Below, in pieces: positions 2,867-61,851 of a stretch of DNA of 63,823 bases. The number at the start of each line of letters is the position of its first letter. Position 1 is the first letter of the stretch. Below the pieces are notes generated by a model. It did no database searches, was not told the DNA's origin, and was given only the letters and a program-made list of their open reading frames with translations. This DNA is from a virus. Both the position numbers and the translations under genes were made by a program. The stretch lies in IMG/VR virus record IMGVR_UViG_3300020034_000013, positions 1 through 63,823 of that record; one strand, written 5' to 3'.

Positions 2867-5059
2867 ATGATGTACCCCCTCTCAGTATCTCCTAGCATCG
2901 CTAAAAAAAGTGCCAAGATCACCGATTACATCGAGTGCACCTGGGAGGATTTCTGCGCCATAGAAGCAGCTCCTGATGGTAAGGCCAAAGAAGAGTACGA
3001 ACTCCTCTATCCCGCGCGTTTTGAGAATTCCTATCGCACCGATGATAACGCCCGAGATCTATGGGCCGCCCGTATAGATGTCGACCAGCGTCATGTCACC
3101 GAGGAGGAGCTCCGGAAGGCGCTCACTCCCTTTAAAGCGGTGGCCTGGACATCCTACAATTCTACTCCCGAGGCCCTGCGGTGGGCCGTCTGGGTCGTCT
3201 TAGATAGGACTCCGGCCTATAAGGCGGAGTACCAGGCCACCGTGCGACGCCTAGTGGAGATCATCCCCGGAGCATCCAAGGGTCAAGCCGATATGTCCCG
3301 GCCCCGTGTGGTGCCAGTCGACCGACCCGGTTTCCGTAAATTCGTGACGGATGGCTTTCCTCTGGCGGTTGCCTTGGTGACCAAGGAACCCGCGCATCAG
3401 AAAAGCGAGAACCCTCTATGGGAGAGGGCAGGGAAACCCGACATCCAGAAGGCCAGGGAGATCCGCCGCACACAGGGCTACCCTCCACAGGGGGAGCAGT
3501 ATGACCTCTCCCGCCTCCTCGCCCGGGCGTTGGTAGATGCGGGCTACGATGAGGGAGATGCCTGCTCTATGGTGTCTGCAGACGGAGATTACGACACTGC
3601 TTGGATCGGCCCCGTGCAACGCTCGGCTGTCGCAGGAGGGGAGTCGCTCAAAAGGTATTGGCCGGCCGCGGAGGAGTTCCTCAATGCTCTCGGGATCGAG
3701 AGATATGGCACGACCTCCGCTAAAACGCTCATCGCTGCCCTCCGCGCTCGTGAGGCGGTGGTGGAGACACCTGCAAAGCCCGGACATGAATATACGTACG
3801 ACCCTTCTTTCGTCGTGAATGGGGAGGTCGAGAGCGCCTCTCTTCATACGGTAACAACGACACTGATCTCCTCCGCCGAATGGCAGAACGTCCTCAAATG
3901 GAACGACTTCTCCAACCGACCGGAGGCTCACGGCCCTCCAATGAAGCTCGATGCAGAGCAAGATAAAGGGGTGTCGAAAAACGATATCACCCTTATCCGG
4001 CTATGGTTTGCATGGAGACACGGCATGAAGGTGCGAGAAGAGGATTGCCGTGCGGCGATCTACACGGCGACCAAACGTAACCACTATCATCCGGTGCAGA
4101 TCTGGCTGAACGCCCTCCCCGAAGCAGATCCCCGTATCCTGGATGGCCTGGCAGGTCGGTTATTCGGCGCTAGCGATCCTCTCGAAGAGGTCTTCCTACG
4201 GAAGTTCCTCGTGCAAGCCGTCGCGCGGATCATGCGGCCCGGTTGCCAGGCGGATAGTGCCCTCACGCTCTATGAGGAACGCGGCGGCATGAAAAAGAGC
4301 ACGTTCGTGCGTGTACTCTTCGGGGAGGCCTGGATGGCTCCGTTCGGGAAGATGAAGCTAGGGGAGATCGAGACCAGTAGGAAGCTCCTAGGGAAATGGG
4401 CGTTTGAGATCGCAGAGATGGCTGCGATGCGGGACAGCCAGGTGGAGGACATCAAAGCATTTTTCACTACAACGTCCGACCACTTGCGGGATATGTGGGA
4501 CCCCAACTACTGGGACCAGCCCCGACAGTGTGTGTTCGTGTGCACAACTAACGATAAGCAAATCCTCAAAGACGAAGCCCACGAGCGGAGATTTTGGATC
4601 ATCGACGTGAAGCAGGTGATCGATATCGAATACCTTGAGGCTAACCGAGATGCCATCTGGCGAGCCGCGCTCGATCTCTACAGAGCAGGGGAACAGTGGT
4701 GGCTTACCAACGAAGAAAAGGAACGGGCGAAGATCATACTAGAAGGGTTCCGAGAACAGCCGGACCCGTGGCATGAAGCTATCGAAGACTACTGCTCCGG
4801 CAAGGAGTATGTCCTGTCGTCCAAGATGTTCACCGATCTCTTCGCCGGCACCGGAGGGGGGATCGAGAAGTACGGAGTGAAAGAGCAGAGACGGATCTGC
4901 ATTTCCCTGAAAAGGATGGGCTGCGTCTCCTGTACGATGAGGACAGGGGATAAGGTGATCCGAGTGTGGCGGATGTCGGATAAACTGAGGTCTCAGGCTT
5001 CTCCCCAGCCCGAACCCAAACTCAGGCTGGTTTTACCGACATCTCATACATCTGCCTAG
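2867..5059 (+). CDS. primase-helicase, VapE family (primase-like N-terminus)
   Basis: 730 aa. The C-terminal half matches the VapE/D5-like helicase pattern: a P-loop region (ERGGMKKSTFVRVLFG), FEIAEM as the acidic motif, IKAFFTTTSD, CVFVCTTND and ERRFWIIDV. The final Gly of the classic GKS is Lys here (KKST), a deviation worth noting. The first about 150 residues (AARIDVD, SYNSTPEALRWAVWVVLD) look like an archaeo-eukaryotic primase domain. Likely role: priming and unwinding at the phage origin; the gene-poor AT-rich segment lies directly downstream. Start supported by AAGGAGG about 9 nt upstream. Followed by a terminator. Confidence 0.85.
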   Translation: MMYPLSVSPSIAKKSAKITDYIECTWEDFCAIEAAPDGKAKEEYELLYPARFENSYRTDDNARDLWAARIDVDQRHVTEEELRKALTPFKAVAWTSYNSTPEALRWAVWVVLDRTPAYKAEYQATVRRLVEIIPGASKGQADMSRPRVVPVDRPGFRKFVTDGFPLAVALVTKEPAHQKSENPLWERAGKPDIQKAREIRRTQGYPPQGEQYDLSRLLARALVDAGYDEGDACSMVSADGDYDTAWIGPVQRSAVAGGESLKRYWPAAEEFLNALGIERYGTTSAKTLIAALRAREAVVETPAKPGHEYTYDPSFVVNGEVESASLHTVTTTLISSAEWQNVLKWNDFSNRPEAHGPPMKLDAEQDKGVSKNDITLIRLWFAWRHGMKVREEDCRAAIYTATKRNHYHPVQIWLNALPEADPRILDGLAGRLFGASDPLEEVFLRKFLVQAVARIMRPGCQADSALTLYEERGGMKKSTFVRVLFGEAWMAPFGKMKLGEIETSRKLLGKWAFEIAEMAAMRDSQVEDIKAFFTTTSDHLRDMWDPNYWDQPRQCVFVCTTNDKQILKDEAHERRFWIIDVKQVIDIEYLEANRDAIWRAALDLYRAGEQWWLTNEEKERAKIILEGFREQPDPWHEAIEDYCSGKEYVLSSKMFTDLFAGTGGGIEKYGVKEQRRICISLKRMGCVSCTMRTGDKVIRVWRMSDKLRSQASPQPEPKLRLVLPTSHTSA

Positions 5060-5083
5060 ACGTCCGAAGAGATAGACTTCATG

Positions 5084-5113
5084 AAGGCCCGGCTAATCCC
5101 CGGGCCTTTTTCT
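5084..5113 (+). terminator. rho-independent terminator
   Basis: AAGGCCCGG (5084-5092) pairs with CCGGGCCTT (5100-5108) across a 7-nt loop and runs into a T-rich tail. It lies 25 nt after the primase-helicase stop. Confidence 0.85.
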
Positions 5114-5582
5114 TTGGTTGCCCTCCATAACGGGAGGTGACGGGTGGTCGTCGGAGTGGTGTTACAAATCTGAGCTTATTTTCTCGGGGTTGTATCTCTG
5201 TAACATGTGTAATATATATTTTTTATAAAGTATATATATTATAGTAGTAGTGGGGAGGAGGGTGAGGGCGGGGAGCGCGGTGGTGGAGCGTGGGGGGGGG
5301 GCAACGGACCCTTCTTATGTTTATTACGTGTTACAGCGTTTCAGTGAGCTACACCCTAAAAACAAGCCGTAGCGTAAACCACCTACATGACCTGGACGCG
5401 TTACGGGGGGCGTGACAAACTGCCTACCGTACCTTCCTAGCGTATAAGTTTGATGCACCTGTATAAGTTAAAACTCTTCGGCCGACCTAAAATTAGCTTT
5501 TGGAAAACTTAAAAATTCTAAAATTACGGAATCCGTTCTGGGTGGATTCTGTACCTCGTTATGGCAACTCGACGACCCTGTC
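5114..5582. other. gene-poor AT-rich/G-rich segment, candidate replication origin
   Basis: No convincing ORF. A roughly 45-nt, almost pure A/T stretch (about 5205-5246) is followed by a strand-asymmetric G-rich tract ending in ten consecutive G (5292-5301). GTTACA occurs at 5161 and 5330 and as its complement TGTAAC at 5199. GTATAAGTT is repeated at 5442-5450 and 5461-5469, followed by an A/T-rich patch to 5528. An AT-rich unwinding region with short repeats next to the primase-helicase gene is a typical origin layout. The assignment is inference. Confidence 0.45.
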
Positions 5583-5631
5583 TTGACACTTACTCTTGGA
5601 ATGGCCATCCTCAGAGTAGAGTGAGGACATC

Positions 5632-5745
5632 ATGACCGAGTGGCAGATTATCTTCGTGTACATCATCCTGGTACTATGTGTGTTCTTTGCCGGGTTCTGC
5701 GTAGGATGTGCGTGGTGCTGCTCGGGTAGGGGCGGTAGAAGGTGA
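5632..5745 (+). CDS. small membrane protein, 37 aa
   Basis: One hydrophobic helix (about residues 5-29, IIFVYIILVLCVFFAGF) with four cysteines, then a short basic tail ending SGRGGRR. Too short for standard ORF cut-offs. A TTGACA at 5583 with a 17-nt spacer to CATCCT could drive it. No clear ribosome site beyond GAGGAC. Function unknown; it is the first gene after the candidate origin. Confidence 0.5.
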   Translation: MTEWQIIFVYIILVLCVFFAGFCVGCAWCCSGRGGRR

Positions 5746-5766
5746 CGCAAGACTTGCATAAATATC

Positions 5767-5795
5767 TGGACACGGCCCTCGATATATCGTAGCGT
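5767..5795 (+). promoter_or_regulatory. promoter with predicted leaderless start
   Basis: TGGACA, 17-nt spacer, TAGCGT, then six bases to ATG 5802. This is the geometry seen at many leftward genes here. Confidence 0.45.
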
Positions 5796-5801
5796 AGTGT
5801 C

Positions 5802-6362
5802 ATGGCTCTTGTGCATCTTAGCGAAGTCCTCGACATCCTTTCTACCCGGACGCAGGCACCATCTATCCTGGGGGCGCAGCTCGAAGGGCTCGAGGTGGGG
5901 GACGGCAGAGTAGATCGTTACGAGAGCGACCCTCCTCATGTAATAGAGGAGGTGCTGCATGTGGCCGGAGTCCTTCGGTGCATCCAAGCTCTACGAGAAA
6001 ACGGACCCCCACGGGACGACAAGTGGAATACTCTATACCCTGCGCTCGCACGTACCAAGGACCGCTTTCGCTCGGTCGGTCGGTATGTAGGGATGGGGTA
6101 TCTCATCTCCGCTGTCCTGACCGTATATTCGGAATTCGGCGTGCGGGAGCCTACGCGAGGTCTCCTTTCTCTGCATCGTTGGTTATCCTCTCAGGCCCCG
6201 GTCGCCTACCCGCCGCTCAAGGGTGATTATGAGGCGCAAGTCGCTGGGTTCTCCGAGAGTACCGCCGCCAAGCGAGAAGTCTCTGAGCTCTACGCAGACG
6301 CACTCCTCGCCGCAAATAAACATGTACAGAGCTGGAACGCCCCTAATGCCCTCCGAAAGTAG
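5802..6362 (+). CDS. hypothetical protein, 186 aa
   Basis: Mostly helical by appearance; no motif recognised. No Shine-Dalgarno sequence precedes the ATG, but a promoter-like element ends six bases upstream, so a leaderless transcript is possible. The next gene starts inside its 3' end (ATG 6346). Confidence 0.6.
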   Translation: MALVHLSEVLDILSTRTQAPSILGAQLEGLEVGDGRVDRYESDPPHVIEEVLHVAGVLRCIQALRENGPPRDDKWNTLYPALARTKDRFRSVGRYVGMGYLISAVLTVYSEFGVREPTRGLLSLHRWLSSQAPVAYPPLKGDYEAQVAGFSESTAAKREVSELYADALLAANKHVQSWNAPNALRK

Positions 6363-6657
6363 ACCGCCCTCCCCTAAATGGGTTACCCTCGCGGAGGCCG
6401 CGAAGTATACCGCTATCCCTCATCGTACGTGGCGGCACTGGTGCGCTACCGAAAAGGCCCCGGCCAAGAGGTACGGTAGGGCGTGGTACTTGGATATCGC
6501 AAGCTGTCTCAATGATGAAGAGGGCAATCTGAGAGACTATGCTCTCCAGATTCTTGACAATGTCTCTCAGATCGAGAGCTGTAAGGAGGTAGCAGGCACC
6601 TGGGTTATCGTCGTAGGCCCGCGTATCGGCAAGCGTATCGGCAAGAAAGTGCCCTGA
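6346..6657 (+). CDS. excisionase/MerR-like helix-turn-helix protein, 103 aa
   Basis: The segment WVTLAEAAKYTAIPHRTWRH followed by the wing-like RYGRAWYLDI fits the winged-helix fold of excisionases and Mor/MerR-type phage DNA-binding proteins. A C-terminal part ends in a basic GKRIGKKVP tail. ATG 6346 overlaps the upstream gene by 17 nt; ATG 6322 is an alternative. With no integrase visible, a transcriptional or DNA-architecture role is more likely than excision. Confidence 0.6.
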   Translation: MPSESRPPSPKWVTLAEAAKYTAIPHRTWRHWCATEKAPAKRYGRAWYLDIASCLNDEEGNLRDYALQILDNVSQIESCKEVAGTWVIVVGPRIGKRIGKKVP

Positions 6658-6705
6658 GCTCCTGAGGGTATATGAGAGGGAAGCGTTTATCGCAGGGCGT
6701 GTCCC

Positions 6706-6760
6706 ACCGGTTCACGGACCGGTCCCCTCAACCACTATTCGACGGGTCCTCGGGACCCGT
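6706..6760 (+). promoter_or_regulatory. two hairpins around a possible promoter
   Basis: ACCGGT repeats at 6706-6711 and 6718-6723 form one inverted repeat. ACGGGTCC/GGACCCGT (6742-6749/6753-6760) form a perfect 8-bp hairpin. TTCACG (6711) and CACTAT (6733-6738), 16 nt apart, would start transcription within the second hairpin, giving the small-gene mRNA at 6805 a structured 5' end. There is no T-tract, so it is not a simple terminator. Confidence 0.4.
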
Positions 6761-6804
6761 GCAACAGACTCCGCTCTCTTCTACCTGAAAGGACCCGGTG
6801 AACA

Positions 6805-6960
6805 ATGGCGAAAAAGTACGACAAGACGGTTCTTGAACCCAAGCCTAAGGCTAGTGGTAAGATCGTAGATGAGAGAAATTCGACCATCCAGGCAGCGGCC
6901 GATAAGATGCGCAAAGAGCAAGCGAAGGCCACCCCCAAGGCCCCTAAAGGTAAGAAGTAA
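6805..6960 (+). CDS. small basic protein, 51 aa
   Basis: Lys/Ala-rich, starting [19 protein letters not shown] and ending KAPKGKK. Preceded by GAAAGGA as a ribosome site. It overlaps the next gene by one base (TAATG). Its charge suggests nucleic-acid binding, which is inference only. Confidence 0.6.
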
Positions 6961-7103
6961 TGCCCCTCAAGGCTGGCAAGTCCAATGCAGTGAAGAGCGA
7001 GAACATCAAAGAACTCGTGAAGTCGGGGCGTCCGCAGAAACAGGCGATCGCCATCGCCTACGAGAAGGCCCGCGAGAGCGGCAAATCCAAGGGCAAGAAA
7101 TAG
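6960..7103 (+). CDS. small conserved-type phage protein, 47 aa
   Basis: Begins [19 protein letters not shown] and contains [16 protein letters not shown], a pattern I recognise from small proteins found in many phages and prophages (MPLK..KS..VI..NI.EL...G.P..QA.AIA), of unknown function. It starts in a TAATG overlap and ends in a Lys-rich tail. Confidence 0.65.
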
Positions 7104-7105
7104 CC

Positions 7106-7378
7106 ATGGACCCCCAGTCAAAACCTTGCACCTGTTGTGCGATGGCTCGAGAAGGTATCCCTTCGGACATCTCTTTTTTGACGGGGGCGGCTCTGGGCAT
7201 CCTGCATCTCGGCCATAGCGCTCCTCTCCCCTTGTGCGAAAAGCACGCGGCTCTCACGCTCGAGCAACTTCGGTGGCTCGCGGGGCAGCTGGACATTACT
7301 CTCGCACCCCCCGCCGACCCCAAAGACTCGGGGCCTCAAGTCAACGTCCTTACTCCTAAGGGTACGGTGCTCTCATGA
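7106..7378 (+). CDS. hypothetical protein with possible zinc site, 90 aa
   Basis: Cysteines and histidines cluster (CTCC near the start, then LHLGH and CEKH), which could bind a metal. ATG 7106 follows the upstream stop by two bases; the stop overlaps the next ATG (ATGA). No family recognised. Confidence 0.55.
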   Translation: MDPQSKPCTCCAMAREGIPSDISFLTGAALGILHLGHSAPLPLCEKHAALTLEQLRWLAGQLDITLAPPADPKDSGPQVNVLTPKGTVLS

Positions 7379-42546: not shown

Positions 42547-42764
42547 CGTGAGAGGAACTTTACGAGTTCCGTGAGAGCAACTGTGAGATCTTCCTGTCGT
42601 CGGAGGCGGAGGTCATGGGGCTCTTGTCTGGATGTCGATACGTTAACCCGGGCGACGGCAACAGCCCGTTCTAGGTCGAGACGCTCCGTCCGAACTTTCT
42701 CCCCATACTCGGCCATCCGTTCGGCATGCGCGCGCTGTTTATCGGTGAGCTCAAGAGTCGTCAT
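42543..42764 (-). CDS. small helical protein, 73 aa
   Basis: Highly charged helix, MTTLELTDKQRAHAERMAEY then DLERAVAVARVNVSTSRQEP; likely coiled coil. Starts 13 nt inside the methyltransferase 3' end. No family recognised. Confidence 0.55.
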   Translation of the reverse strand: MTTLELTDKQRAHAERMAEYGEKVRTERLDLERAVAVARVNVSTSRQEPHDLRLRRQEDLTVALTELVKFLSR

Positions 42765-43953
42765 CAGTGACTTTCGTCCAGTGTTCAATCCTGAGACACG
42801 CAATTCTGTTATACCCCTCATCCTCCGGGTCAAGCTCGATGCCAACGACCTCATCCCACCCTGCCAGAAGAGCGCCGATCATCTCGCTGCCAGATCCCGA
42901 GAAGGGAACGAGAAGCCTGCGCGGCGACCCGTCGGACCGCGGGGGAGGCAGAATCAGCTTCGCCAAATATTCGCATAGGGCGATAGGCTTCACGCAAGGG
43001 TGGTGATTCCGGTGCCCGCCAGTACGCCCGGCGCCTGCAGCCCCATTGCCGATATCCACTGCGCCGTCCTCGCGATCAACGCAATCGCCCGCCGACTTTA
43101 GCACCAGGCTTTCGCACCCAGCATTGCGCTCTTTACTGGACACTTTCGCCGAGAAATAAAATCTCGCAGCGCCCCCGTTGTCCCTGAAGCCCCGCTTCCC
43201 GCCGCCCCCATTGGCCGTTACGGAGGGGTGTGACGGGCGATTGCCGACAATCTCATCCAAGACCTGTCCTGCGCCCTCATCTAGGATCACGTTGCGGGGC
43301 CAATTGCCAACCGGAGCACCGACGCGCTCGATGCGACAACCATCAACCCACATCGCGCCAGTCCCCCACTTGAGGGCGTTGATCGCGTAGATGCCGTCGA
43401 GGGGTTTGCGCGCCACGGTAACGGGCTCCCACGCCGGAGCCAGCGCCATGCCGTGACCTTCCCAGGGAGCCGACAGCTCGGAACCTGCGCCGGTGATGGC
43501 AATCGTCTTGGTCGTGGAGCCCACGCCTATCCCGTAGGTGCCGCCCTTCTCCGCAGTCGAGATGCCTGCGTTACCGGTCAGAACCTTATGCCCGACAACC
43601 AGGCGCTCGTTTCCGAGATGCGCGTCGATCAACTTGCCCATCGTCGTTGCCGGCTTTGGCATGCCCTTGGCGTACATCCAGGCGATATGGTCGCGAATCT
43701 CAAACCCAGCGTCTTCCACGTTGCAGTCTGCGCGGTGGAAAGTACGGGAGCCACCGAATGACATCGCATAGGCACCGGGCTTCAGAACGCGTAGAATACT
43801 CTCCCAGCATCCAACGCTGGGCAGCGTATAGTCCCATTTCTTGCCCATAAATTTGAGCCCATATGGCGGATCGCAGAGGACCGCATCGAAATGATTTTCG
43901 GGGAGCCTGGAACAAACATCTTCCACCTCTCCCTGTATGATCCAATATTTCAT
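42751..43953 (-). CDS. DNA methyltransferase (N6-adenine/N4-cytosine type)
   Basis: 400 aa. Catalytic motif DPPYGL (residues about 27-32) near the N-terminus and the AdoMet-binding FSGSGSEMIGALLAGWDEVV near the C-terminus (order IV then I, beta-type circular arrangement), with HPCVKPIALCEYLAKLILPP before it. Probably methylates phage DNA against host restriction or marks its own genome. Stop and start overlaps tie it to neighbours. Confidence 0.85.
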   Translation of the reverse strand: MKYWIIQGEVEDVCSRLPENHFDAVLCDPPYGLKFMGKKWDYTLPSVGCWESILRVLKPGAYAMSFGGSRTFHRADCNVEDAGFEIRDHIAWMYAKGMPKPATTMGKLIDAHLGNERLVVGHKVLTGNAGISTAEKGGTYGIGVGSTTKTIAITGAGSELSAPWEGHGMALAPAWEPVTVARKPLDGIYAINALKWGTGAMWVDGCRIERVGAPVGNWPRNVILDEGAGQVLDEIVGNRPSHPSVTANGGGGKRGFRDNGGAARFYFSAKVSSKERNAGCESLVLKSAGDCVDREDGAVDIGNGAAGAGRTGGHRNHHPCVKPIALCEYLAKLILPPPRSDGSPRRLLVPFSGSGSEMIGALLAGWDEVVGIELDPEDEGYNRIACLRIEHWTKVTDDDS

Positions 43954-44225
43954 TCGTACCCCTTTTCATCATACTGCCGGTCTTCAGCGTCGAGTTTGCA
44001 ACCAAAGCGGAGGTTGTATAGGAGCGAGGTCAATGCGGATGAAGGGATACCGATGGCCGTAGAGACGTGCACATCATCGGACAATCCGTTGGTCCAACGA
44101 ACTTCTACTATTCGAGAGGCTCCGAAGGGGGAGATTTCCAGATGTCGAGGGGGGCCTTCTCTCTGGGAGTCAAATTCTCTACCGGCGGCTAAGATGTCGG
44201 TGATCGTCGACAGAGGGATCATCAT
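43950..44225 (-). CDS. hypothetical protein with shared C-terminal tag AEDRQYDE, 91 aa
   Basis: Core (STITDILAAGREFDSQREGP; VEVRWTNGLSDDVHVSTAIG) unrecognised. The last residues DAEDRQYDEKGYE share AEDRQYDE with the C-termini of the two genes upstream. The end of the gene also carries the AAGGGG ribosome site of the methyltransferase. Starts in an ATGATG overlap. Confidence 0.6.
   Translation of the reverse strand: MMIPLSTITDILAAGREFDSQREGPPRHLEISPFGASRIVEVRWTNGLSDDVHVSTAIGIPSSALTSLLYNLRFGCKLDAEDRQYDEKGYE
43966..43991 (-). repeat. gene-end repeat encoding AEDRQYDE, copy 1
   Basis: Third and most diverged copy of the gene-end repeat, related to 44231-44257 and 44824-44850. Differences from copy 2 fall almost only on third codon positions. 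Confidence 0.75.
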
Positions 44226-44818
44226 TCCCCCTCGTCATACTGTCGATCTTCGGCGCCGCGCTCAGGATTGTAAGGGACAACGATGTCTCCAATAGATCTA
44301 AAGGTATCATAAAATTCTTTCGTTCGGTCGACAGTGCCGGGCACATACACGATCGCGTTGCTGTGGGATGGCGCGTTCTTCGCTTCATCTCCGGGCCAAT
44401 CAAATCGTATGCGCTTGCGGGGGATGCACACCGGGAACGCTGTGGCTGGCAGGCAGTCTCGGCCCTGGCTCACTGATAGGCCTTCGACAGAGAAGAACAT
44501 GAAGATAGCATGTTGTATGTGCCCTAGATCACGTTCTCTCATGAGTTTTTGCCAGAATAGGAGTGTCTTGCTCTTGTTGCCAACCTTGCCGCCAGGGGGA
44601 TTCACATAGAGAGCAGCAGGCATCCCTCCGAGTGACCAGTCTTGTTCAAGTCCGTTGGATGCCTCGTCGAAATACTTCGACGCGCATATGCGTTTGTTCG
44701 CCATATAGGATGATGCAGGGTCCAGGTCGATCTTTCCAAGAACGCGAGTCACCAGGCCGATAATATTCCGAGGCGTCATCCACGAGTCTTGCCTGCTGCT
44801 ATGCTGGATGTTCATCAT
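44222..44818 (-). CDS. dam: phage Dam-like N6-adenine methyltransferase with C-terminal AEDRQYDE tag
   Basis: 198 aa. DSWMTPRNIIGLVTRVLGKI, DLDPASSYMANKRICASKYF and YVNPPGGKVGNKSK match the phage Dam family (W.TP..., DP.AS..N..., NPPGG). The tail ERGAEDRQYDEGE matches its neighbours. Likely methylates adenine in a short motif, self-marking phage DNA. ATG 44818 overlaps the upstream stop. Confidence 0.82.
   Translation of the reverse strand: MMNIQHSSRQDSWMTPRNIIGLVTRVLGKIDLDPASSYMANKRICASKYFDEASNGLEQDWSLGGMPAALYVNPPGGKVGNKSKTLLFWQKLMRERDLGHIQHAIFMFFSVEGLSVSQGRDCLPATAFPVCIPRKRIRFDWPGDEAKNAPSHSNAIVYVPGTVDRTKEFYDTFRSIGDIVVPYNPERGAEDRQYDEGE
44231..44257 (-). repeat. gene-end repeat encoding GAEDRQYDE, copy 2
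   Basis: 27 bp, 25 identical to copy 3; the two differences are synonymous (Gly and Tyr codons). Followed by the GAGGGGG ribosome site of the next gene. Confidence 0.8.
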
Positions 44819-44970
44819 CCCCCCTCGTCGTACTGTCGATCTTCGGCACCAAGTTCGAATTCGGCCTCCGCAAGGAAATCCTCGAGGGAAGGCTCATCCT
44901 CGAACTCGTCATTTTCCCGAACTATGCCCACCTGAACCGCGTATTCGTAAATCATACCGTCGAGCGTCAT
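44815..44970 (-). CDS. acidic small protein with C-terminal AEDRQYDE tag, 51 aa
   Basis: MTLDGMIYEYAVQVGIVREN, then DEFEDEPSLEDFLAEAEFEL and the tag GAEDRQYDEGG. ATG 44970 has GGAGG six bases upstream; the longer in-frame ORF overlaps the gene at 45026 and is not used. First gene after its own promoter; the tag and the next ribosome site are encoded by the same bases. Confidence 0.6.
   Translation of the reverse strand: MTLDGMIYEYAVQVGIVRENDEFEDEPSLEDFLAEAEFELGAEDRQYDEGG
44824..44850 (-). repeat. gene-end repeat encoding GAEDRQYDE, copy 3
   Basis: Copy at the end of the 51-aa gene; nearly identical to copy 2, again directly preceding GAGGGGGG and the next ATG. Confidence 0.8.
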
Positions 44971-45025: not shown

Positions 45026-45265
45026 TCAGTTGAGAAAAGTCCCCGGCGAGAGAGGAGCAGAATCTGCGTCTGCTTCTTCCAGACGGTCCACTTCATCTTG
45101 GATTTTGTCCAATGACCGTGCGAACTCGGCATCATGCTTCGGACAAAGGACAAGAGGGTACGCTCGCGCCAACGACAAGACTCCAATGGCCATCCCTGTA
45201 AAAAAGGTCACAGGAGTGCTGGCAGAAAGTTTAATCATCGAGCAACACATACACTTACCTGACAT
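45026..45265 (-). CDS. hypothetical protein with membrane-like segment and coiled coil, 79 aa
   Basis: MSGKCMCCSMIKLSASTPVT then a hydrophobic stretch (FFTGMAIGVLSLA), CPKHDAEFARSLDKIQDEVD and an acidic tail. ATG 45265 has AGGAG upstream and overlaps the previous gene by 11 nt; ATG 45289 is the longer alternative. Function unknown. Confidence 0.55.
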   Translation of the reverse strand: MSGKCMCCSMIKLSASTPVTFFTGMAIGVLSLARAYPLVLCPKHDAEFARSLDKIQDEVDRLEEADADSAPLSPGTFLN

Positions 45266-45443
45266 TGAGGAGCTCCTGTTTGCGGGCATTTACGTAGACT
45301 CTGCGTACCGCGGCTTTGAGAGATTTGTTCCAAGTCTGGACCCTCTGATCTTCTTGTTCGAACCGAACAAAAAACCCTCCGTCGGGTGTCCGGGTAATAG
45401 TAACCCGGCCATGGTAAGAGAGGGTGGCAAGGTGGTGTTTCAC
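45255..45443 (-). CDS. small HicB-like-fold protein, 62 aa
   Basis: YHGRVTITRTPDGGFFVRFE then a helix (KSLKAAVRRVYVNARKQ) has a beta-beta-beta-alpha look reminiscent of small RNase-H-like/HicB folds. GTG 45443 overlaps the previous stop (GTGA). Confidence 0.5.
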   Translation of the reverse strand: MKHHLATLSYHGRVTITRTPDGGFFVRFEQEDQRVQTWNKSLKAAVRRVYVNARKQELLNVR

Positions 45444-46522: not shown

Positions 46523-46722
46523 AACTTCGCCTGATCGGAGGGCAGGTCGTTTCCTGCAGTCCAGTCTTCGAGAAACTTTATTCGAGCCTTCAATGAGGCT
46601 ATGTCCGCGAGATCTAGCGCAAACTCTTTGGCTAGAGCGGCCCATTCATCTCGATCTTTTGTGACAAGTTCGAGCTTCGCTTCCAGTTGTGCGATCTGAT
46701 ACCACAGCATTTCGTCGCTCAT
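46519..46722 (-). CDS. coiled-coil protein, 67 aa
   Basis: MSDEMLWYQIAQLEAKLELV and KFLEDWTAGNDLP form a long charged helix. ATGA overlaps on both sides. Function unknown. Confidence 0.55.
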   Translation of the reverse strand: MSDEMLWYQIAQLEAKLELVTKDRDEWAALAKEFALDLADIASLKARIKFLEDWTAGNDLPSDQAKL

Positions 46723-46937: not shown

Positions 46938-47212
46938 GAGAAATCCGAGGACAGCAAGATGTCCAAGGTCCCATAAAAAGATTCATCGCCCAGTCTGGCC
47001 ATATTCCAAAGAAGATCCTCGTGGACACAAAGCAAGCTGTAGGAATCACCGGGCTGCACCCCCGCCTCCCCAAAGCCACGAGTATAGGACTTGAAGAGAT
47101 ATTTCCCCAACATCTTGTGATACTTCACGGTGGCATCGAACTCGGAACTGTCGATATATTTACGGATTTTCTTGAGGAGTTTTTTGCTTTTCTTTTCAGA
47201 CAGGAGTTTCAT
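46934..47212 (-). CDS. hypothetical protein, 92 aa
   Basis: Lys-rich start MKLLSEKKSKKLLKKIRKYI, then EFDATVKYHKMLGKYLFKSY and an acidic C-terminus. ATGA overlaps on both sides. Function unknown. Confidence 0.55.
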   Translation of the reverse strand: MKLLSEKKSKKLLKKIRKYIDSSEFDATVKYHKMLGKYLFKSYTRGFGEAGVQPGDSYSLLCVHEDLLWNMARLGDESFYGTLDILLSSDFS

Positions 47213-47532
47213 CGTCGTGCCTCTGAACAGTCATAGCATAAACTGCGGTTGTGGTTGAGTGCGTGATTACTGGGTGTTTTACAATGAGCGCAAACACCGG
47301 AGAGGTCCGGTGTCATCGATAGGGAAGGGGAGATCTCAGGAACAGTTACTGTGATACCAGGAGTCCCCTCGGGTGTTGCGAAGATTTCCACGACATCGAA
47401 GCCATTCATCGAGCCGGGGCGAGGTACGTCCTTCCACATTCTGCCACATAGATTACACGTAGTGATACCCTTATCGCGTGTTTTCATAGAATAGTGACAA
47501 GAACAGTAACTTCCGAGATATACGGTGGTCAT
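47209..47532 (-). CDS. double zinc-ribbon protein, 107 aa
   Basis: Cysteine pairs CSCHYS/CNLC and CAHC/CYDC suggest two zinc ribbons flanking a beta-rich middle. The AGGAAGGTG before ATG 47532 serves as ribosome site. A nucleic-acid-binding or transcription-related role is possible. Confidence 0.6.
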   Translation of the reverse strand: MTTVYLGSYCSCHYSMKTRDKGITTCNLCGRMWKDVPRPGSMNGFDVVEIFATPEGTPGITVTVPEISPSLSMTPDLSGVCAHCKTPSNHALNHNRSLCYDCSEARR

Positions 47533-52334: not shown

Positions 52335-52544
52335 TTAGGGGAACTTCTTTTCGGCCCTCTTGCGGGCTTCATAGGCATCGAGTAGTGACTCTACTCTATC
52401 GTCTACATGTACTACCTTGGCGTCATGGTCATCCTCAGCTATTGCAAGTCGGAACCGCCAGACCCAACTATCTCCCACTTCGTTGCGACCCCCCGGGCTG
52501 TAATGCGTGACGAACTCTTCGGCGAGTGAGCGAAGCGCGCTCAT
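52335..52544 (-). CDS. hypothetical protein, 69 aa
   Basis: MSALRSLAEEFVTHYSPGGR, then VWRFRLAIAEDDHDAKVVHV and a charged tail. ATG 52544 overlaps the upstream stop. Followed by the terminator. Confidence 0.6.
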   Translation of the reverse strand: MSALRSLAEEFVTHYSPGGRNEVGDSWVWRFRLAIAEDDHDAKVVHVDDRVESLLDAYEARKRAEKKFP

Positions 52545-52888
52545 GACCCCTCCCATGTGGCGATCGCCTCGTCCAGGACCGCTAGGATTTCTGCATGAGT
52601 TCGATTCTCTTCATCATTGAAACTAGGAAGAGCGCCCCCGTAGTTTTCGTCTCCGTGGTAGTCGAGCGCCGGCGCGAATCGGCGATCCGTCGTGTCCGGG
52701 TACTGCTCCTCCAGGTAAAGCCCAAGCTGCTGGAACTCCAGAATAGTGCAAGCCCACCCTAATGCGCATGCGCGGGTGCCGCATTTCCCATCAGAAAAGC
52801 CCGCGTCAGCCCACCGTCTCATGTCGAACCGATCTTCCGGCACCGTGTCCAGGAAGTCCGCGAGGATGAGAAGTCGTTCTTTGTTCAC
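52541..52888 (-). CDS. DUF6197-like protein, 115 aa
   Basis: MNKERLLILADFLDTVPEDR, CGTRACALGWACTILEFQQL and SFNDEENRTHAEILAVLDEA match the phage DUF6197 pattern (CALGA...; ND...T..E.LAVLDEA). A relative lies at 57965. GTG 52888 is six bases after a -10 box (leaderless prediction). Function unknown. Confidence 0.65.
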   Translation of the reverse strand: MNKERLLILADFLDTVPEDRFDMRRWADAGFSDGKCGTRACALGWACTILEFQQLGLYLEEQYPDTTDRRFAPALDYHGDENYGGALPSFNDEENRTHAEILAVLDEAIATWEGS

Positions 52889-52894
52889 GGTCCC

Positions 52895-52922
52895 ATAATA
52901 ATCCTTACGATTCGAGTGTCAA
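52895..52922 (-). promoter_or_regulatory. promoter, predicted leaderless GTG start
   Basis: TTGACA, 16-nt spacer, TATTAT, six bases, GTG 52888. The -35 lies within the HNH gene's last codons. Confidence 0.7.
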
Positions 52923-53732
52923 GAGTCTCTCCTGGAATTCTTCAAAGGTCTCGATACTCCGGCCCGTCCTTGCGCACCACTCGGCAAGAGACTTGTTGCT
53001 TTTCGAGCTGTTGCAGGACTTACATGCAGGCGCGATATTGGAGCCGATGTCACCCGGGCACATAGGATCTGTAATCGCTACGACATGGTCCCGGGTTAGC
53101 CTCACGCCCGGCTGAGGTTCTATGCAGTAGGCGCAGAGATATCCATACGCCTCGCAGATAGCCGCGAAGTCGTATTTCTCCTTGTGCAGACCTGCAAGAA
53201 GGGCTCTTCGCGCGTGCGCATAATCTTTGCAGCGTGTCTTGTTGGCTCTTCGCCAGGCCGACTGCCGGGCTGCGATCTGCTCAGAGTTCTCCTTGCGGTA
53301 GGCCGCGATCTTTTCGGAGTTCTCCTTGCGGTAGACCGCATTCTGAGTTGCGATCTTCTCAGCGTTCTCCTTGCGGTAGGCCGCGATCTTTTCGGAGTTC
53401 TCCTTGCGGTAGACCGCATTCTGAGTTGCGATCTTCTCAGCGTTCTCCTTGCGGTAGGCCGACTGCCGGGCTGCGGTCTGCTCGGCGTTCTTCTTGTAAT
53501 AGGCCGACTGCCGGGCTGCGATCTTCTCAGCGTTCTCCTTGTAATAGGCCGCGATCTTTTCGGAGTTCTCCTTGCGGTAGACCGCATTCTGAGTTGCGAT
53601 CTTCTCAGCGTTCTCCTTGCGGTAGGCCGCGATCTTTTCGGAGTTCTCCTTGTAGTAGACCGCTTTGTAACACTTCCGACATAGACCTTTTGCGCAGTGC
53701 TTTGCGTCTACGCACCCGCACGTCAAGTCCAC
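52905..53732 (-). CDS. HNH endonuclease with long YRKEN repeat region
   Basis: 275 aa. Cys-rich head (CGCVDAKHCAKGLCRKCYK), then repeats of [YV]-[YR]-K-E-N-[AS]-E-K-I-A over residues about 25-155, then the HNH domain: CAYC, LTRDHVVAI, NIAPACKSCNSSKSN. Resembles NUMOD/group I intron-like homing nucleases with DNA-binding repeats. The repeats are near-identical in DNA, so copy number may vary between isolates. Overlaps the polymerase gene by 10 nt; no intron seen. Confidence 0.75.
   Translation of the reverse strand: MDLTCGCVDAKHCAKGLCRKCYKAVYYKENSEKIAAYRKENAEKIATQNAVYRKENSEKIAAYYKENAEKIAARQSAYYKKNAEQTAARQSAYRKENAEKIATQNAVYRKENSEKIAAYRKENAEKIATQNAVYRKENSEKIAAYRKENSEQIAARQSAWRRANKTRCKDYAHARRALLAGLHKEKYDFAAICEAYGYLCAYCIEPQPGVRLTRDHVVAITDPMCPGDIGSNIAPACKSCNSSKSNKSLAEWCARTGRSIETFEEFQERLLTLES
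53272..53664 (-). repeat. tandem repeat inside the HNH gene
   Basis: Repeating units of 42-66 nt encoding [YR]-K-E-N-[AS]-E-K-I-A-x(2-5). TCAGCGTTCTCCTTG- and TTTTCGGAGTTCTCCTTG-type blocks recur many times. It is protein-coding, not a CRISPR array (no unique spacers). Confidence 0.8.
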
Positions 53733-57836: not shown

Positions 57837-57968
57837 CTACCCCTCCGTGTCGCGTAGCAAGAAGATGTACTCCTCGTGGATATCACAGTACCGTACCTCC
57901 CAATGCATGCCGCCGGGGGTCGCGAATATCTTCAAATAGCCTCTAATCTCCTTGAGATGCCTTTTCAT
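57837..57968 (-). CDS. small protein, 43 aa
   Basis: MKRHLKEIRGYLKIFATPGG then MHWEVRYCDIHEEYIFLLRD; a compact beta protein. ATG 57968 overlaps the stop of the DUF6197-like gene (ATGA). Under typical length cut-offs. Confidence 0.5.
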   Translation of the reverse strand: MKRHLKEIRGYLKIFATPGGMHWEVRYCDIHEEYIFLLRDTEG

Positions 57969-58357
57969 TTGCCACCCACACCCTCGATCGCCTCGTCTAG
58001 AACCGCCAGGACCTGCTCATGAGTCGTCTCTGGATCGTCGTTGAACGCTTGAGACGGGCTAAACAGGGTAAAGCCGAGCGACAGCGCACGTGCCACAACG
58101 CCCTCGACTTCACTGATCGCGCCCTCGCATCCAGGAGCAGTCGTCCCACCTGCAGCGCGGGTGATCGCTCCCTGTAGGCAGTAGCATGACGCCATTGGGT
58201 GGCATGCGTCCACGGGCAACCCCAAGGGACTCCTCGCGTGGGCACCCTTTGTCCAGCGGCACTCGTCTGACAGGAGACTCCTGGCGGCCCGAAGGACTTC
58301 TTCGACACTTTTACCACACAGATGGCTGTACGGACTGTAATGATTATTTTCGCTCAT
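57965..58357 (-). CDS. DUF6197-like protein, 130 aa
   Basis: MSENNHYSPYSHLCGKSVEE, ASCYCLQGAITRAAGG and AFNDDPETTHEQVLAVLDEA; a paralogue in pattern of the protein at 52541. Function unknown. Confidence 0.65.
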   Translation of the reverse strand: MSENNHYSPYSHLCGKSVEEVLRAARSLLSDECRWTKGAHARSPLGLPVDACHPMASCYCLQGAITRAAGGTTAPGCEGAISEVEGVVARALSLGFTLFSPSQAFNDDPETTHEQVLAVLDEAIEGVGGK

Positions 58358-59005: not shown

Positions 59006-59248
59006 TCACGCCAACCTCTGCCATCCCAGGCCTGGTCCCCATAATGAGTCTAATCTCACATAGATTTCATCGCCGGCGTCGTCCCGGAGTACCGCATATC
59101 TCGCATAATCGCCCATCCGGCGCTGGCGAGATGGGCTCAGTGTATCCACGACCTCCCATTCCATGTCGGGATGGGTCTGCGGGTGCCGCCAAACCTGTCC
59201 GAGATTCATCCGCCGGCTCAATCCAGGCACATCCCCCACTCCGCTCAT
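59006..59248 (-). CDS. hypothetical protein, 80 aa
   Basis: MSGVGDVPGLSRRMNLGQVW then MEWEVVDTLSPSRQRRMGDY and a beta-rich end. Alternative start Met14. ATGA overlap with the zinc-ribbon gene upstream. Confidence 0.55.
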   Translation of the reverse strand: MSGVGDVPGLSRRMNLGQVWRHPQTHPDMEWEVVDTLSPSRQRRMGDYARYAVLRDDAGDEIYVRLDSLWGPGLGWQRLA

Positions 59249-59373
59249 CGGCCTGCCTCATTGCACTCGTAGCAGAGACCCCGATGATGTCCCTTGGCGT
59301 GACTGCTCTCCACGTGGCAGGAGACGCAGCGGACGGCCATGTCAGCAGGGGCAACCTCGTATTCCTCCGCCAC
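59245..59373 (-). CDS. zinc-ribbon mini-protein, 42 aa
   Basis: CVSCHVESSHAKGHHRGLCY then ECNEAGR form a zinc ribbon. ATG 59340 or GTG 59373 (MAEEYEVAPADMAVRC) are possible starts; GTG follows GAGAAG. Stop overlaps the next gene's ATG. Confidence 0.5.
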   Translation of the reverse strand: MAEEYEVAPADMAVRCVSCHVESSHAKGHHRGLCYECNEAGR

Positions 59374-59380
59374 CGGCTTC

Positions 59381-59584
59381 TCAAAATATTCCTTCAGCAG
59401 CTTTCTGAAAATATTCTTTACATTCTTTTTTCGTAGACGCGTTCCTCAACGGGCCAGAATATCCAATCGGCTTTCCCTGGGAGTTGAAGACGATAGTGTC
59501 CCCCGGAACGAACCCGATATCCACCAGTCGAATAAAATACTCGAGCCGCTTCTCCTTGAGTTTGCATTTCAGATCCTGGCTCAT
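59381..59584 (-). CDS. hypothetical protein, 67 aa
   Basis: MSQDLKCKLKEKRLEYFIRL, FVPGDTIVFNSQGKPIGYSG and a basic C-terminus. ATGA overlap with the lipoprotein stop. Unknown family. Confidence 0.55.
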   Translation of the reverse strand: MSQDLKCKLKEKRLEYFIRLVDIGFVPGDTIVFNSQGKPIGYSGPLRNASTKKECKEYFQKAAEGIF

Positions 59585-60542: not shown

Positions 60543-60724
60543 AAGAAGCTCACTAATTGGTCGATGCGGGCCCGCGCCTCTTTGAGTTCTTGGGTCAGAC
60601 TACGGACGGTATCGTTGACGGTGACGACTTCTCTGTGTAGTTCTTCGCATCGCTGTAAGAGCAACTCGATAGTCCTTTCGGACTCAAATCTCTCGGCCTC
60701 GCACTCTTTACAGAAATCCTTCAT
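60539..60724 (-). CDS. coiled-coil protein, 61 aa
   Basis: MKDFCKECEAERFESERTIE, ELLLQRCEELHREVVTVND, SLTQELKEARARIDQLVSFL. ATG 60724 overlaps the upstream stop. A long coil with a CxxC start. Confidence 0.55.
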   Translation of the reverse strand: MKDFCKECEAERFESERTIELLLQRCEELHREVVTVNDTVRSLTQELKEARARIDQLVSFL

Positions 60725-61242
60725 TTGCCACCCCATTCCTCGCACCGGATTTCTCGCACGATGTCCAAGAGAATTTCTGCCGTTGTTGCGTGTGCTAGTT
60801 TGGCCCGTGCTTGTATGCAAGAGACGGCGAATTCTTCACCGTCTCTATGGCCCTTGGTGTAAGCCACTTCACACTCCTCTACCCCTTTTGCGAAACCTTC
60901 ACGGTACTCTTTTTCGTGCGTCTCGTCCATTCGGTGGCGTTGGGGGGGATTCTCGGGACTCGGGGTGTTCTCCACGAGGTCTTCGGGTCGCGTGAATTTG
61001 ATCGACTCCAAGTGGGTGATTTGGGCTTTTAGTCTACCCACTTCTCGGGCTCGAAGATCCCCCGCCCTGTCGTGTGCGTCACTCCACCAAAAATACCATT
61101 CGCTGTCTTTGAGAAGATCCGCTTGAGGATCTTTCGGCGAGAAATATCGGAGAGTATTATACGCCTGTCCTGACTCGACAACCTCCCCTTCGAATGTGAG
61201 AATCCCGCGGGTAAGCGCATACTTGGTGCAATAGACTTTCAT
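60721..61242 (-). CDS. hypothetical protein, 173 aa (full-length member of a pair)
   Basis: N-terminus MKVYCTKYALTRGILTFEGE recurs almost exactly at 61511; the C-terminal half is helical and charged (DETHEKEYREGFAKGVEECE). GGAGGA precedes ATG 61242. Unknown family. Confidence 0.6.
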   Translation of the reverse strand: MKVYCTKYALTRGILTFEGEVVESGQAYNTLRYFSPKDPQADLLKDSEWYFWWSDAHDRAGDLRAREVGRLKAQITHLESIKFTRPEDLVENTPSPENPPQRHRMDETHEKEYREGFAKGVEECEVAYTKGHRDGEEFAVSCIQARAKLAHATTAEILLDIVREIRCEEWGGK

Positions 61243-61251
61243 GATTCCTCC

Positions 61252-61511
61252 TCACGTACGTAGCGGATTTGAATCGCTAAACGAGAGCTTATTTAGGCGC
61301 TCGAGCTTCTTTTTACTTGAAACGATTGCAGCATCCCTCATCTCGAGGCAGCGCTCTCTAGCCTCCTCAAACGTCTCGAAAAACTCTCCTGGGGACAGAA
61401 ATGTGCCGTCGACCCCCCGGGGATAATCTCCTCGAACGAGGATCCCACGATTCGCCCTTCGACCTCCAGGATCCCTCGAGTCAATGCGTACTTGGTGCAG
61501 TAGACTTTCAC
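61252..61511 (-). pseudogene. frameshifted paralogue of the 60721 gene
   Basis: GTG 61511 with GGAGGG six bases upstream gives VKVYCTKYALTRGILEVEGR, then at a run of six C (61413-61418, G on the coding strand) homology to the sister (FLSPGEFFETFEEARERCLE) moves to the -1 frame, ending at TGA 61252. This is either an indel (natural or sequencing error) or a programmed -1 shift at GGGGGG. The in-frame start alone would end at 61338. Confidence 0.6.
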
Positions 61512-61593
61512 GACATTCCCTCCGTTAGCGCCGAATCGACCAGGTACCAGCCCCCAGCCATCTGGCGGATAAGACCACGTCAACACCATAACT

Positions 61594-61851
61594 TCATTCC
61601 CCTGCCTCAACAGAGAGAGCATCTTCAACCAAGTCACGAGTCCCCGCCATCTGCCTCGTGAGACCCTTGTAGTTGCGTTCCCCGCTCAGCAAAATCTCGA
61701 TGAAGCCGTGGTCCTTGGCGCCGTAGCCAAGTGCGCTCTTGACGTAGATGCGGACCAGGCCGCCCTTGTCCCACACCTTAGCGGCGCGGCCTTTGCTCTC
61801 GAGCACCTCAACAATCTTCTCCGCCATCTCGTCCGTGGTTATCGCGCTCAT
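61594..61851 (-). CDS. paralogue B of a two-member family, 85 aa
   Basis: MSAITTDEMAEKIVEVLESK, GLVRIYVKSALGYGAKDHGF and RDLVEDALSVEAGE; about half of aligned residues match the protein at 58484. ATG 61851 overlaps the end of a conserved leader. First gene after the 61894 promoter. Confidence 0.65.
   Translation of the reverse strand: MSAITTDEMAEKIVEVLESKGRAAKVWDKGGLVRIYVKSALGYGAKDHGFIEILLSGERNYKGLTRQMAGTRDLVEDALSVEAGE

Follow-up and report, generated by a model that had tools for sequence, protein, structure and literature searches.

In the lambdoid phages, short gene-boundary sequences (Susskind and Botstein 1978; Clark et al. 2001, in PMC3233612) are thought to target the recombination by which genes are added or swapped. 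In the cluster K mycobacteriophages, the start-linked DNA elements known as SAS/ESAS are present in many copies, around half of them with 17-bp inverted repeats, and are proposed to function in translation initiation (PMC3203893). At the protein level, C-terminal docking motifs such as those of the sliding-clamp QxxLF type allow a short tail to bring otherwise unrelated proteins to one partner. A literature search on C-terminal tails common to neighbouring phage genes returned nothing relevant.

The locus described here lies in a 63.8 kb virus record (the window) from an uncultured phage. It resembles the lambdoid boundary sequences in presenting a short conserved sequence at gene junctions but differs in being repeated in a single genome, in falling within coding sequence and in its conservation at the peptide level. 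With the SAS/ESAS elements it shares a repeated element associated with the start sites of a number of phage genes; here, though, there are only three copies, without significant structure, the repeat encodes the C-terminus of the preceding protein and the changes in its core are confined to third positions. Like the docking motifs, it supplies otherwise unrelated proteins with a short tail, and the tail peptide, AEDRQYDE, does not by inspection fit the clamp-binding motif QxxL[F/W]. Compared with known boundary and start-linked repeats, the module differs in being both coding and conserved as peptide.

Three copies of a gene-junction module

The module is found in a run of minus-strand genes that encode, in order, a 51-aa acidic protein, a predicted Dam-like N6-adenine methyltransferase, a 91-aa protein and a predicted 400-aa N6_N4 DNA methyltransferase, each gene overlapping the next by ATGA (Table 1). 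In profile searches the Dam-like protein matches PF05869 (E=7e-8; 32.8 bits against a cut-off of 28.1) and phrog_111 (E=1e-16) and scores below the cut-off of NCBIfam TIGR01712, whilst the 400-aa protein matches PF01555 (E=9e-10) and phrog_67 (E=3e-38). The latter is the final gene of the run, with neither a coupled downstream gene nor a tag. The 87-aa gene immediately upstream of the tagged genes (45026-45289) has a plus-strand paralogue (33%) at the opposite end of the record (7106-7378).

Table 1. Coordinates of the gene run, the peptide core and the junction module
Feature	Position	Strand	Details
51-aa acidic protein gene	44815..44970	-	ends GAEDRQYDEGG; GGAGG Shine-Dalgarno before ATG 44970
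198-aa Dam-like N6-adenine methyltransferase gene (predicted)	44222..44818	-	appended tail GAEDRQYDEGE
91-aa protein gene	43950..44225	-	ends DAEDRQYDEKGYE
400-aa N6_N4 DNA methyltransferase gene (predicted)	42751..43953	-	ends KVTDDDS, untagged
Core AEDRQYDE, copy 3 (51-aa gene)	44824..44847	-	GCCGAAGATCGACAGTACGACGAG
Core AEDRQYDE, copy 2 (Dam-like gene)	44231..44254	-	GCCGAAGATCGACAGTATGACGAG
Core AEDRQYDE, copy 1 (91-aa gene)	43965..43988	-	GCTGAAGACCGGCAGTATGATGAA
Junction module, copy 3	44812..44850	-	GGT + core + GAGGGGGG Shine-Dalgarno + ATGATGA (51-aa stop, Dam start)
Junction module, copy 2	44219..44257	-	GGC + core + GAGGGGGA + ATGATGA (Dam stop, 91-aa gene start)
Junction module, copy 1	43950..43991	-	GAC + core + AAGGGG TAC GAATGA (91-aa stop, 400-aa methyltransferase start)

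That three adjacent genes end in AEDRQYDE had been proposed in the initial annotation and is borne out, the core being located at all three C-termini. It is followed by two to four residues, rather than the two to five first given, so that the full tails read G-AEDRQYDE-GG in the 51-aa protein, G-AEDRQYDE-GE in the Dam-like protein and D-AEDRQYDE-KGYE in the 91-aa protein. A six-frame and pattern search of the whole record returned these three copies only, with a chance expectation for the core DNA pattern of 0.00 in shuffled sequence. A seeming further match to copy 3 (71%, 46651-46684) falls within a 67-aa gene of coiled-coil-like character and was put down to chance.

The similarity is not confined to the peptide. 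From the codon before the core through GAGGGG to ATGATGA, a span of 39 nt, copies 2 and 3 show 92% identity; both the ATGA overlaps and the continuation across the stop and the start codon that follows had originally been overlooked. Copy 1 can be aligned up to the stop codon by way of two in-frame 3-nt indels (GAA AAG GGG TAC GAA TGA against GAG, gap, GGG, gap, GAA TGA). The GAGGGG ribosome site first attributed to the repeat as a whole is present in copies 2 and 3 but not in copy 1, which has AAAAGGGG. Beyond the limits of the module no similarity was seen among the three tagged genes, which appear from their sequences to be otherwise unrelated. All three copies sit at ATGA junctions and, because the shared block spans the Shine-Dalgarno sequence, the stop and the next start, it would have originated as a gene-junction module; part of D-E-G in the tail is dictated by the ribosome site. 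Eight further junctions on this strand of the record overlap by exactly the 4 nt ATGA and have no such tail, so the tail is not generally required for overlap. RNA structure at the three junctions is in no way unusual when compared with shuffled sequence (fold z-scores 0.1 to 0.9), and no array of many copies with inverted repeats, as in SAS/ESAS, is seen.

Other shared stretches occur in the same record. The minus-strand genes at 52541-52888 and 57965-58357 are alike in a C-terminal stretch only (SFNDEENRTHAEILAVLDEAI and AFNDDPETTHEQVLAVLDEAI, 62% over 21 aa), two genes at 47209-47532 and 59245-59445 have a zinc-ribbon-like C-terminal piece in common (CAHCKTPSNHALNHNRSLCYDCSEARR and CVSCHVESSHAKGHHRGLCYECNEAGR) and the adjacent reading frames at 60721-61242 and 61338-61685 have a common N-terminal stretch (MKVYCTKYALTRGIL). 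Repeats with a spacing of mostly 78 nt are found at 53177-53666, within a 275-aa gene (52905-53732).

Codon positions, relatives and predicted structure of the tail

The differences between the copies fall largely as first described. Within the core and the codon preceding it, copies 2 and 3 differ at two third positions (GGC/GGT and TAT/TAC); past the core they also differ in the last codon (GAA/GGA, giving E or G). Copies 1 and 2 differ in the core at five third positions, each time synonymously, and directly before it by a single nonsynonymous change (GAC/GGC). Taking the three copies together, six columns of the 24-nt core are variable, every one of them a third position (P=0.0002 for random placement, calculated post hoc), and the five changes between copies 1 and 2 taken alone give P=0.0013. 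When five substitutions of copy 2 were simulated, the peptide was left intact in 0.008-0.12% of trials (0.0001-0.0012), the range depending on the transition bias assumed. These are post hoc statistics from a small sample, 24 nt in three paralogous copies picked for their likeness, and the argument for selection rests on those copies because no close relative was found. With that proviso, they support purifying selection on the tail peptide. The initial annotation had gone further in proposing selection on the peptide rather than on the DNA. The first half of this claim agrees with the third-position bias and the simulations; the second is too strong, as the shared block takes in the Shine-Dalgarno sequence, the stop and the start. 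Nor does the repeat behave as a mobile intergenic element lacking coding conservation, an outcome that had been named as one that would count against the peptide: its copies are three, in frame, restricted to adjacent junctions and altered at third positions.

Genes with an AEDRQYDE tail were not found elsewhere, either in IMG/VR (2.9 million viral contigs; degenerate patterns AEDRQYDE, AEDRxYDE and RQYDEG plus Shine-Dalgarno) or in 84,980 genomes (AEDRQYDE). A search for the C-terminal peptide had been suggested at the outset; the matches to these patterns, where examined, looked like chance, being interior, antisense or out of frame. For three that had a C-terminal appearance (L081, L112 and L114), a more plausible gene covers the site, either on the opposite strand or in another frame. 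A scan with single proteins identified no close relatives of the Dam-like protein, the 91-aa protein or the terminase, and tblastn gave no phage matches to the 91-aa and 51-aa proteins. The nearest terminase, that of MW202476, is just 39% identical, and inspection of MW202476 for a tag-like tail found none.

The Dam-like protein has the catalytic domain in common with other phage Dam-like methyltransferases (PF05869; phrog_111) but carries, past that domain, an added acidic tail of 10-11 residues that is absent from the relatives examined. None of ~40 Dam relatives from IMG/VR and GenBank (27-47% identity) has an AEDRQYDE tail, and most of those inspected end right after the last beta-strand, often themselves overlapping the next gene. 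Relatives lacking the peptide had been put forward as evidence against its selection; this result is ambiguous, since none of the ~40 is closely related to this phage. In an AlphaFold2 model built from 28 sequences, the core of the Dam-like protein is predicted with a pLDDT of mostly 93-98 and the last 10 residues with ~55. The single-sequence model of the 91-aa protein is poor throughout (mean pLDDT 50), its last 22 residues, at below 50, being the least confident. The low confidence of the tail in both models suggests that it is probably exposed and flexible.

Shared tails at other phage methyltransferase loci

We surveyed 188 phage loci (1.55 Mb) for tails shared by same-strand ORF ends within 4 kb that have an overlapping downstream start. 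C-terminal 4-mers were shared in 41 instances, where unrelated tails would lead one to expect 9.2, with much of the excess stemming from one locus, L024, whose shared tails were rejected as a parallel because they belong to a tandem gene family alike at both ends. As the loci were gathered for holding methyltransferases, these counts carry no claim of enrichment near methyltransferase genes.

At L160 (374-2075), three genes end in EGRGT, and each has an ATGA overlap with the gene that follows; the three codings differ synonymously only (GAAGGCCGGGGCACATGA, GAAGGACGTGGTACATGA and GAAGGAAGGGGAACATGA) and there is no other such site in that record. At L041, two adjacent methyltransferases (4704-7227) end in T[T/P]DPRQGVLFG, their DNA being identical in the final codons, with AAGGGG ahead of an overlapping TTG start, and at L040 the peptide PKDETK occurs twice, again in identical DNA. 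The repeated DNA at L040 and L041 is identical or nearly so, and hence can be explained without selection on the peptide. The QGVLF of the L041 tail fits a sliding-clamp-type motif, as does the end of a Dam relative at L149 (QPTLWD, fitting QxxL[FW]). At L065, a C-terminal stretch of >15 residues (EFLDCTSELPTQGIGIV; 3610 and 3863) is repeated to either side of a short methyltransferase-like match, around half of the differences being synonymous.

In looser form, shared tails analogous to AEDRQYDE and particular to one phage occur in these other methyltransferase loci too, at junctions where genes are coupled. A broader proposal would be that, time and again, the genes of one overlapping run in a phage acquire a C-terminal 'operon tag' of their own, copied with the junction and kept by protein-level selection, by which added genes are recruited at once to a common partner. 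The peptide would be specific to each phage, AEDRQYDE here and those given above at L160, L041 and L040. We regard this generalisation as distinctly unlikely.

Explanations for the shared tail

The explanation that we prefer, tentatively and with somewhat less than even confidence, is that one coding gene-boundary module was duplicated as genes were added, its peptide being kept, for which docking by an exposed tail would be the simplest reason. An ancestral module of ~33-42 nt, comprising 10-13 codons from the end of one gene, a Shine-Dalgarno sequence and an ATGA stop/start overlap, would have been duplicated as the overlapping run gained the Dam-like methyltransferase and the 91-aa gene. 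Because the module would be duplicated with each added gene, each would end in the same tail and stay translationally coupled to its neighbour. The tail would then have been retained at the amino-acid level and so may act as a C-terminal extension that is exposed, acidic and flexible; in the simplest case it would be a short linear docking motif giving the co-translated proteins one common partner. In favour of this reading are the homology across stop and start, the third-position bias, the Dam relatives that end without the tail, its low predicted order, the untagged last gene of the run and the comparable tails at L041, L040 and L160. Counting against this are the variation in the residues that follow the core and the eight ATGA junctions on the same strand that have no tail. 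The functions first proposed for such a tag, namely docking, degradation or localisation, are speculation.

The main rival, which we consider rather unlikely, operates at the level of nucleic acid only: a boundary sequence of Shine-Dalgarno and ATGA would be kept for coupling, or spread by recombination, with the peptide arising as a by-product whose frame the fixed stop/start overlap maintains. The extent of the homology is as this would predict, and identical short junction modules are present in other phages (L040 CCAAAGGATGAGACGAAATGA, L041 AGGATCGACCGATGA and L024 GGGGGTACAAAATGA). Homologous recombination at conserved gene-boundary sequences is moreover a published model (PMC3233612, citing Clark et al. 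2001). Matches to the AEDRQYDE pattern in other genomes, where examined, look like chance, and the module was not seen to be shared between genomes in the manner of a boundary sequence. Against this rival, the six codons upstream of the Shine-Dalgarno sequence (A-E-D-R-Q-Y) have four variable columns, all of them third positions (P=0.005); in addition, the junction RNA structure is unremarkable and the eight other ATGA junctions manage without the block.

It is less probable, and in our view doubtful, that the tails are young copies from a recent duplication without function, the third-position pattern reflecting luck and the choice of example. The sample is small and post hoc and copies 2 and 3 are almost identical, as such a history would require, but copy 1 differs from copy 2 at 5/8 third positions and 0/16 other positions, and so is neither young nor random.

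Less probable again is a tag for degradation or stability, in which the acidic tail would either target these three early proteins to a protease, of the host or of the phage, or shield them. The tail is C-terminal and is predicted to be poorly ordered in the Dam-like and 91-aa proteins. Classical ssrA-type C-degrons end in LAA, whereas the final residues here (GG, GE and GYE) differ from one another and are acidic or neutral; by inspection, none provides the hydrophobic C-terminus expected for Clp proteases. Least probable of all, and very improbable, is a nascent-peptide effect, whereby the tail inside the ribosome would delay termination or promote reinitiation where the next start overlaps: every tagged gene does end in an ATGA overlap, but so do eight untailed ones, and the EGRGT, PKDETK and DPRQGVLFG tails elsewhere have no chemistry in common.

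If the preferred reading is correct, and a coding boundary module has been duplicated with each added gene, this would provide a route by which genes can be added to tightly overlapping runs while translation of the next gene stays unbroken, and a copied junction could bring along a functional protein tail. The signature of shared tails, synonymous drift and ATGA junctions may then serve to find proteins that share a partner among the many uncharacterised small genes of phages.
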